DNA of 34,261 nucleotides, taken from Patescibacteria group bacterium. GTDB taxonomy: Bacteria; Patescibacteriota; Microgenomatia; UBA12405; JAHJSD01. Shown here piece by piece: positions 26,619 to 29,152 of the stretch. The stretch spans positions 1 through 34,261 of the forward strand of contig JAHJSD010000013.1 of NCBI GenBank assembly GCA_018830585.1, in the 5' to 3' direction. Under the pieces are notes generated by a model. It did no database searches, was not told where the DNA came from, and saw only the letters and a list, made by a program, of their open reading frames with translations. Each line of letters starts with the position of its first letter. Position 1 is the stretch's first letter. The position numbers and the translations under genes are program-made.

Positions 26619-26845
26619 GCAAACTATCCTGCGGGACTGGGCTACAGAAAAATATCATAGACAAGGAGGCGTTCGAAAGAGAGCTTGCTCTATGTCATAA
26701 TCTGTCTCAGGAGAATGGCGGTAAATGTGGTTGGGGGATATGTAAAGATTGTGGGGTAATACCGCTTCTTTACAAATTATACAAGGGCGTGTTACTTGAA
26801 GACCCTGCTGAAATAAAAAAGGCAAAAAATAAAGTAGTGAAATAA
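26615..26845 (+). CDS. small conserved-looking cysteine-containing hypothetical protein
   Basis: 76 aa, 'LCHNLSQENGGKCGWGICKDCGVIPLLYKLYKG'; start overlaps the preceding stop. Confidence 0.6.
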   Translation: MSKLSCGTGLQKNIIDKEAFERELALCHNLSQENGGKCGWGICKDCGVIPLLYKLYKGVLLEDPAEIKKAKNKVVK

Positions 26846-26899: not shown

Positions 26900-27056
26900 A
26901 TATCACACACCCGGTGTGTGATAGGTTGACACCTCGGGAATTATTTATCACACACCCGGTGTGGGAAATTCTTCGAGTAACGTCGGGAAGAATTTGTTAA
27001 ATTAATTCGATCCTGGATCGAAAAACCTAAAACGATCCAGGATCGTGATTATCCTG
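26900..27056. repeat. composite REP-like repeat cluster
   Basis: CACACACCCGGTGTGTGATAGGTTGACACCTCGGGAATTATTTATCACACACCCGGTGTGGG and CGATCCTGGATCG...CGATCCAGGATCGTGATTATCC. Confidence 0.82.
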
Positions 27057-27057
27057 C

Positions 27058-27087
27058 TTGAATTTAAACTTCAACTTCCGGTATAAT
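27058..27087 (+). promoter_or_regulatory. aspS leader promoter
   Basis: TTGAAT - 18 nt - TATAAT. Confidence 0.65.
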
Positions 27088-27094
27088 ATTGGTT

Positions 27095-27303
27095 AGCAAA
27101 AACAACGATCCTGTTTGTGACCCAGGGGAGTTGAAGGAAGAAACCCCGCTACCACGGGGAAGTAAAGCCTTCCGGGCGCGCCCGTAACAGCGTTAAATGA
27201 GCTCTCGACTTTAGGTCGGAGGAAGCAGGGTGGCACCGCGAACTTATGTAAGCCCTCGCCCCTGTCAATCAGTTTGTCTTGGTTGATATGGGCGAGGGTT
27301 TTT
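27095..27303 (+). promoter_or_regulatory. T-box riboswitch (Asp, ultrashort Stem I)
   Basis: T-box core CAGGG-TGGCACC-GCG (27226-27240) pairing with CGC-CCCTG (27257-27264). Competing terminator CCCTCGCCC/GGGCGAGGG + TTTTT (27253-27303). Stem I hairpin 27103-27133 with GAC at 27119-27121. Confidence 0.9.
27253..27303 (+). terminator. T-box-controlled intrinsic terminator
   Basis: CCCTCGCCC ... GGGCGAGGG followed by TTTTT. Confidence 0.9.
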
Positions 27304-27346: not shown

Positions 27347-29152
27347 ATGAAACGAACCCTGATAAAAGATACCGTTTCTTCAGTTGGCAAAAAAGTGGCG
27401 ATCTCCGGTTGGGTAAATAGTGTCCGGAGTCATGGCAAATTAGCCTTTGCTGATATCCGGGATAGGTCTGGAATGATTCAGGTAGTTGGAGGAAAAGAAC
27501 TTGCTAAACTAAATCCGGAATTTGTTGTTAGAATGGAAGGATTGGTTAAAAAAAGAGAAGAAAAATATTTTAATCCCAAAATAGCCACCGGGGAAATCGA
27601 GCTAGAAGTAGAAAAAGTGTTAGTTTTGGCTGAGGCGAAAAACTTGCCTTTTGATATTCATCAACCTAATTTGGACGTTTCCCTGCCTGTTTTGCTGGAC
27701 TATCGGGCCGCTTCATTAAGAAACAAAAAAATTTCCGATATCTTTCGGGTTCAGGCAACTATTGTCAAAACTTTTAGAAAACATATGAACGACAACGGTT
27801 TTATTGAATTTCAGGCTCCAACGATTGTTGCTACTGCCACCGAGGGAGGATCGCAGGTTTTTCAAGTTAATTATTTCGATTACAAAGCCTACTTGGCCCA
27901 AAGCCCTCAATTTTACAAACAAATTATGGTTTCTGTTTTTGAAAGGGTTTTCACCCTGGCCCACGCCTACAGGGCAGAGCCAAGTGTTACTACCAGGCAC
28001 ATGACAGAATACATCGGCATGGATGTAGAACTGGGTTTTATTAACAGCTGGCTGGATGTGGTCGACACGGCAGACAAACTGGTTAAGGCCGTTTTCGCCG
28101 AAGTAAAAAAAGAACATTCAGATATCTTGGCAAATTTTGGAACAACTATTCCTAAAACAGCAGAGAAAACTCCAATAGTGAAACTGTCAGAGGTGCAGGA
28201 AATAATTTTTAAAAGAACCGGCCGGGATATTAGGGGAGAGCCGGACATGGATCCCGAAGGGGAAAGAGAAATTTGCCGTTGGGCGGAAGAGAAACACGGA
28301 AGCGAGATTGTTTTCATCAGTCATTATCCGACCAAAAAAAGACCTTGGTACACCTATCAGGATCCTGAAAATCCGGAGGAAACTCTAAGTTTCGACTTAG
28401 TTGGCCGTGGAGTAGAATGGATTACCGGCGGCCAAAGGATAAATGATTTTGAAGTTCTTTCCGCCAATATTAAAAAAATGGGAGGCGAGCCAAAAGATTT
28501 TGAAATCCCCTATTTACAGGCCTTTTGTTACGGTATGCCGCCGGAAGGCGGATTTTGCTTAGGACTGGAAAGGGTAACTCAGAATATTTTAGGCTTGTCC
28601 AATATAAGGGAAGCGACCCTTTATCCCAGAGATTTGGAAAGAGTAGATGCCAGACTTTCGGTTATCGGCCAAAAAATAGCCGGAAAAAACAAAAATCTTT
28701 TCCATGAATTGATCGATCTGCTTGTTGAAAACAGCATCAACTATCGGCTTTGCAACCATCGGGCAGTTTATACCAGTAAAGAAGCGGCCGAAGCAAGGGG
28801 GACAAAGCTTAGTCAGGGGACCAAGGCATTGATAATGATGGCTGACAGCAAACCGATTTTAGCTGTTATCTCTGCCGCCAAGGAGGTTGATATTGAAAAA
28901 CTTAAAAAATTACTGGCAGCTAAAAAATTAAAAATGGCCACTGCTTTCGAAGTCGAAGAAATTTCCGGAGTTAAAATCGGCGCCGTTCCGCCGTTCGGTA
29001 GTCTGATTGGGCTAAAAATATGGGTTGATAAAAGTTTAGAGAAAAACGAGGAAATTGCTTTTAATGCCGGATTGCACACCAAATCAATAATTATCGCCTA
29101 TCGGGATTGGTTTAACCTGGTCAAACCAGAAAAAGCGGATTTTTCATTGTAA
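27347..29152 (+). CDS. aspS: archaeal/eukaryotic-type aspartyl-tRNA synthetase with C-terminal YbaK/ProX-like domain
   Basis: OB fold 'ISGWVNSVRSHGKLAFADIRDR', motif 2 'YRAEPSVTTRHMTEYIGMDVELGF', motif 3 'GFCLGLERVTQNILGLSNIREATLYPRDLERV'; no GAD insertion. C-terminal 'GTKALIMMADSKPILAVISAAKEVD...GVKIGAVPPFGSLIGLKIWVDKSLEKNEEIAFNAGLHTKSIIIAYRDW'. Confidence 0.93.
   Translation: MKRTLIKDTVSSVGKKVAISGWVNSVRSHGKLAFADIRDRSGMIQVVGGKELAKLNPEFVVRMEGLVKKREEKYFNPKIATGEIELEVEKVLVLAEAKNLPFDIHQPNLDVSLPVLLDYRAASLRNKKISDIFRVQATIVKTFRKHMNDNGFIEFQAPTIVATATEGGSQVFQVNYFDYKAYLAQSPQFYKQIMVSVFERVFTLAHAYRAEPSVTTRHMTEYIGMDVELGFINSWLDVVDTADKLVKAVFAEVKKEHSDILANFGTTIPKTAEKTPIVKLSEVQEIIFKRTGRDIRGEPDMDPEGEREICRWAEEKHGSEIVFISHYPTKKRPWYTYQDPENPEETLSFDLVGRGVEWITGGQRINDFEVLSANIKKMGGEPKDFEIPYLQAFCYGMPPEGGFCLGLERVTQNILGLSNIREATLYPRDLERVDARLSVIGQKIAGKNKNLFHELIDLLVENSINYRLCNHRAVYTSKEAAEARGTKLSQGTKALIMMADSKPILAVISAAKEVDIEKLKKLLAAKKLKMATAFEVEEISGVKIGAVPPFGSLIGLKIWVDKSLEKNEEIAFNAGLHTKSIIIAYRDWFNLVKPEKADFSL

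Follow-up and report, generated by a model that had tools for sequence, protein, structure and literature searches.

A probable transcriptional T-box riboswitch with an ultrashort Stem I upstream of aspS in a Patescibacteria genome

Can a T-box riboswitch control transcription without the part of Stem I that binds the tRNA elbow? This question is raised by the leader of aspS in the window, that is, the whole 34,261-nt contig of a Patescibacteria group bacterium analyzed here. In the structural literature, an elbow platform on a long Stem I is linked to transcriptional T-boxes, the argument being that co-transcriptional capture of the tRNA needs fast binding, whereas short Stems I are linked to control of translation. 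Four T-box classes are distinguished. Classes I and II, with a long Stem I bearing the double T-loop, generally control transcription; classes III and IV mostly control translation, and in class III Stem I is short and lacks the double T-loop, the specifier lies in an apical loop of 5–6 nt, and Stem II is needed (PMC10482949). A long Stem I is generally required by transcriptional T-boxes (PMC7583486). For TBDB, searches with the translational model covered Actinobacteria and those class I hits whose Stem I was truncated (PMC7778990).

A complete T-box leader was recognized at positions 27094–27303 of the window by reading of the sequence and by a match to RF00230. It lies upstream of aspS, after a small ORF whose end is at 26845 (Table 1). 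The match covers positions 27096–27266 with 38.8 bits (E 2.1e-7 for a 311-nt stretch, cmscan) and is the best one in the 1.14-Mb genome (E 1.8e-7 in the whole-genome search). The RF00230 search proposed in the original prediction thus recovered the leader, though its score is below the gathering score of 93 bits, so that it is not listed at the curated cut-off. The score is low because the long apical Stem I of the model is missing: 76 model positions are reduced to 9 bases. The remainder aligns over its whole length, with the GAA/AGUA letters of Stem II, CCGU(A)A of Stem IIA/B, RGGGUGGNACC and the 3' arm all matched. This deletion and the length of Stem I, only 33 nt, agree with the earlier claim that the distal elbow platform is absent.

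The RNA is expected to start near 27094, judging from a sigma-70-like promoter that ends 13 nt before Stem I and leaves approximately 7 nt of RNA upstream of it. A promoter this close leaves no room upstream for a long Stem I, and lengthening of Stem I by upstream pairing, an outcome that the original prediction had considered, was rejected. Folding of the whole leader is 2.6 s.d. better than that of shuffled sequences. Near-perfect palindromes lie 5' of the promoter, at 26903–27046: TCACACACCCGGTGTGTGA (followed by a second partial copy), TTCGATCCTGGATCGAA and ACGATCCAGGATCGT. The latter two share CGATCC(T/A)G with Stem I.

Table 1. Coordinates of the features of the aspS leader and of the downstream gene in the window.
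Feature	Position	Strand	Description and basis
Sigma-70-like promoter	27058..27087	+	TTGAAT-N18-TATAAT; 10/12 consensus positions; pattern match only
Ultrashort Stem I	27101..27133	+	C-stem AAC/GUU, kink-turn AAC-GA/GA, 5-bp helix UCCUG/CAGGG, 9-nt terminal loop
Specifier GAC (Asp)	27119..27121	+	Followed by C27122; in loop UUUGUGACC; register common to class relatives
Stem II	27134..27171	+	S-turn letters GAA (27140–27142) opposite AGUA (27161–27164); RF00230 alignment, sequence
Stem IIA/B pseudoknot	27173..27192	+	IIA CGGG(CGCG)CCCG; IIB loop CGC with GCG 27190–27192; IIB changes on both sides in relatives
Stem III	27202..27221	+	CUCUCGAC/GUCGGAG; folding
Antiterminator	27226..27264	+	A1 27226–27230/27260–27264, T-box bulge UGGCACC 27231–27237, A2 27238–27240/27257–27259; RF00230 alignment, folding
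Intrinsic terminator	27253..27303	+	CCCUCGCCC...GGGCGAGGG + UUUUU; folding alone, -28.6 kcal/mol
aspS	27347..29152	+	Non-discriminating-type AspRS with C-terminal tRNA_edit (YbaK) domain; NCBIfam, PF04073

Stem I has the layout AAC[AACGA]UCCUG(UUUGUGACC)CAGGG[GA]GUU, in which the kink-turn is made up of a bulge of 3 nt and of tandem G.A pairs. The minimal Stem I drawn originally stands, and its 4-bp CAAC/GUUG helix without a bulge is possible via the AAC repeat, but the layout with the bulge fits better. The double T-loop (AGAGA/GNUG) of the long Stem I of class I and II transcriptional T-boxes is lacking. The base 3' of the specifier is C, whereas the other aspS leaders have A there and most leaders surveyed below have a purine; two Ser leaders (L147 and L167) likewise have C at this position. 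The IIB pair takes the forms CGC/GCG, GCGC/GCGC, GAAU/AUUC and UUC/GAA among aspS leaders, and these two-sided changes support the pseudoknot.

The leader thus has the ultrashort Stem I without IDTM, the specifier in the terminal loop, the kink-turn, Stem II with S-turn letters and the IIA/B pseudoknot in common with class III T-boxes such as those of ileS from Nocardia farcinica and Mycobacterium (PMC10482949, PMC7583486). The specifier loop is longer than the penta- or hexanucleotide of that class: 9 nt in the window and 6–9 nt in class relatives. Moreover, known class III cases are actinobacterial ileS leaders, mostly translational, whereas the window leader comes from a CPR genome and has an Asp codon and an intrinsic terminator. 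With class I transcriptional T-boxes of the Bacillus subtilis tyrS type it shares the antiterminator/terminator switch, Stem II, IIA/B and the UGGN bulge, but it lacks their long Stem I and the double T-loop that binds the elbow.

The core RGGGUGGNACCGCG is present as AGGGUGGCACCGCG at 27227–27240, within an antiterminator with CAGGG/CCCUG (A1) and GCG/CGC (A2) pairings. The sequence CGCCCCUG is common to the antiterminator and the terminator, so the two hairpins are mutually exclusive, as the original prediction had it; the core, the antiterminator pairing, the GAC loop and the terminator were all found where it had placed them. Without tRNA the antiterminator has an energy of about -7 to -10 kcal/mol (-9.7 kcal/mol when folded alone) vs -28.6 kcal/mol for the terminator. 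Hence the off state would be the default, and the on state must be held by something, as in T-boxes. The U-run of the terminator ends 43 nt before the aspS ATG, and no pairing of the leader involves a Shine-Dalgarno-like sequence; therefore transcription is the likely level of control, rather than translation initiation, which is typical for class III, though not strictly.

The product of aspS scores above the cut-off for NF003483 (aspartate--tRNA(Asn) ligase, NCBIfam). Its residues 471–589 are a C-terminally fused YbaK-type aminoacyl-tRNA editing domain (PF04073); relatives in the order occur both with and without extra C-terminal length. The genome contains gatB, and it has no AsnRS above the cut-off: sub-threshold model matches comprise only aspS itself and two weaker genes, probably LysRS- and EpmA-type relatives. 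Given the NF003483 match, gatB and the lack of an AsnRS above the cut-off, both tRNA-Asp and tRNA-Asn are probably charged with Asp by this enzyme. The tRNA-Asp of the genome (anticodon GUC, G73) fits both the specifier GAC, which agrees with aspS, and UGGC. The 30 tRNA loci inspected in the assembly, which is 92.5% complete, included no tRNA-Asn.

Thus the proposal of a transcriptional, Asp-specific T-box with an ultrashort Stem I is supported, at the level of sequence, by the architecture, the codon, UGGC/G73, the downstream gene and a terminator excluding the antiterminator. On strong structural and comparative grounds, we consider it very probable that this is a class III-shaped T-box riboswitch, with an ultrashort Stem I, no elbow platform and the specifier in the terminal loop, which controls aspS transcription via uncharged tRNA-Asp. 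In the nascent leader the GAC loop would pair with the GUC anticodon of tRNA-Asp, while the kink-turn and the IIA/B pseudoknot would hold this loop against Stem II. The GCCA end of an uncharged tRNA would pair with UGGC and hold the antiterminator, blocking the overlapping strong terminator and allowing aspS to be transcribed. If the tRNA is charged, its 3' end would be blocked, the terminator would form and transcription would stop.

As the AspRS may charge both tRNAs, the leader could answer mainly to tRNA-Asn. Along with the non-discriminating family of the enzyme, GatB and the lack of an AsnRS above the cut-off, this is suggested by AAC in related aspS leaders: L117 and L120, which have UGGN, and L066, L067, L068, L070, L079, L221 and L222, which lack UGGN and thus a T-box. 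However, the window loop UUUGUGACC does not contain AAC, and its GAC is in the register of the GAC-type aspS leaders L115, L119, L129 and L148 (GAC is also found in L140), so that we regard a response mainly to tRNA-Asn as improbable. The alternation of GAC and AAC on an enzyme serving both tRNAs is what is predicted for a tRNA-reading leader. In the seven leaders without UGGN the ultrashort Stem I, with the loop CCAACA or UCAACA, is followed by Stem II and IIA/B and then by a GUGUGUC...GGAGCAC hairpin and a terminator, the loop of which is often able to pair with the GUGUG strand. Searched for as an exact pattern, which is too strict, the GUGUGUCG...CGGAGCACG hairpin gave 3 matches. Leaders L119 and L129 have an unusual T-box layout, where the UGGCAC hairpin is nested within the terminator stem AAGACCC/GGGUCUU instead of overlapping it.

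We then consider how widespread such leaders are. The best named AspRS relative in the genome collection is from Ca. Shapirobacteria UBA4809, and the sequence upstream of its aspS is identical to L075 from G024, a genome of the same order as that of the window. From this we infer that the surveyed class belongs to Microgenomates, and the description of the genome as CPR-like, made from the window alone, was correct. Of 289 genomes sampled from the class, 155 had a match to RF00230 (E <= 0.001); most matches lie under the cut-off, and only 18 genomes had one over it. In the phylum, 31 of 119 genomes matched at E <= 1e-6. After 80 further regions had been added, with short matches favoured, 136 T-boxes were examined. 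Both long (AGAGA/GNUG) and ultrashort types of Stem I occur in the class.

Ultrashort Stems I were sought by a finder requiring a kink-turn, a single helix and a 6–9 nt loop, which flagged 56 of the 136 T-boxes vs 11.8 expected from dinucleotide shuffles. As these rules were tuned on some of the same sequences, we relied on the codon-gene match and the variable T-box letter, neither of which is used by the rules. The loop codon, read at a 3' offset of 1 or 2 nt, corresponded to the amino acid of the downstream gene (assigned by NCBIfam) in 39 of 48 leaders; in 20,000 permutations the mean was 10.3 and the maximum 24. Without ten leaders whose genes were assigned indirectly, from the gene that follows, a match below the threshold or inspection by eye (L014, L143, L147, L167, L173, L178, L185, L186, L199, L201), the agreement was 33 of 38; in a few other leaders (L098, L187, L189) the gene was named from its translation only. 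In two of the mismatches (L031 and L129) the correct codon is present at a different offset. The agreement in L117 is coincidental, an upstream hairpin having been flagged (the real loop is AAAACA). The variable letter tracks the discriminator: A in Gly leaders (10/10), C in Ser (3/3) and Trp (2/2), and U in Pro (13/14), Val (4/4) and Ile (3/3). At Asp leaders it is C in five cases and U in four.

A terminator was flagged in 47 of 51 ultrashort leaders, a few being weak or distant (e.g. L024, L027, L028), which leaves about 45 or slightly fewer; the four without a flagged terminator (L014, L031, L208, L212) may control translation. The same-class ultrashort leaders (proS, glyS, valS, ileS, argH, trpE, serB and other aspS) share the Stem I layout and mostly have terminators; they differ from the window leader, which has C after the specifier, in codons and UGGN letters. 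The lengths of Stems II and III in the short class are too variable for a trustworthy plain alignment. The leader, originally called unusual, does depart from the published picture, but within its class it is one of dozens, covering at least nine amino acids.

Two arrangements of the surveyed leaders may be mentioned. In 30 of the 136 T-box leaders a full terminator-like hairpin with a U-run lies inside the leader, making two terminators in series (L006, L007, L008, L011, L015, L018–L020, L088–L090, L095, L096, L101, L102, L106–L109, L138, L141, L142, L166, L175, L179, L197, L202, L207, L210, L214); the inner hairpin is mostly 18–33 nt before the T-box core, at the position of Stem III. In L014 (G046) a tandem pair of T-boxes precedes glyS.

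A decayed T-box, that is, a relic that still terminates and no longer binds tRNA usefully, would account for the short Stem I and for C after the specifier. The low RF00230 score agrees with this, as does the distribution among relatives: most AspRS relatives recovered in the order, including the closest one (L065, 68% identity), have no UGGN T-box upstream of aspS, which either directly follows another gene or has a T-box-less leader with AAC. Thus conservation on orthologous aspS genes, a check suggested in the original prediction, was not seen as such in the order, and it is the short Stem I design that is widespread in the class. Still, every module is intact, with S-turn letters and the IIB pseudoknot retained, and the same short Stem I recurs dozens of times together with codons that match the gene, a pattern that decay would not produce; this makes the explanation unlikely. 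We give very little credence to the view that the leader is a constitutive terminator of the usual kind, or a leader-peptide attenuator, with a chance likeness to a T-box: the terminator alone is very stable, but the RF00230 match has E 1.8e-7 in the genome, the small frame from the Stem I loop (GUG ACC CAG GGG AGU UGA) contains no Asp codons, and codon, UGGC, tRNA and gene all agree.

The second T-box of the genome (L002, G000:C67:1359-1486) is located before glyS. It has a clear core with UGGA and no terminator, and a Stem I carrying a Gly codon (GGC) was not recognized in it; GUCCCU in this leader might base-pair with AGGGAG of the ribosome site, which would mean translational control. Further RF00230 matches in this genome are weak (L003, E 0.2; L004, E 9.6), and L003 contains no T-box core.

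No work dealing with T-boxes in CPR turned up in the open-licence literature, the absence being weak evidence, and RF00230 matches in CPR genomes may already be present in databases unremarked. The aspS T-box of the window is chiefly of value as a way into a large set of ultrashort, mostly terminator-coupled T-boxes that is apparently undescribed. A joint reading, to which we give somewhat less than even credence, is that transcriptional T-boxes of Microgenomates commonly work without the elbow platform, with at least nine amino-acid specificities, overturning the rule that this is mainly open to translational T-boxes, and that in the aspS lineage leaders having AAC, Stems I and II and a terminator without UGGN would sense tRNA-Asn through some other kind of output. 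To our knowledge, the short terminator-coupled leaders of the class would be the smallest transcriptional tRNA sensors. Such T-boxes, occurring class-wide, would provide a direct natural test of the kinetic argument for the long Stem I, and the set as a whole points to control by tRNA charging in the streamlined genomes of CPR.
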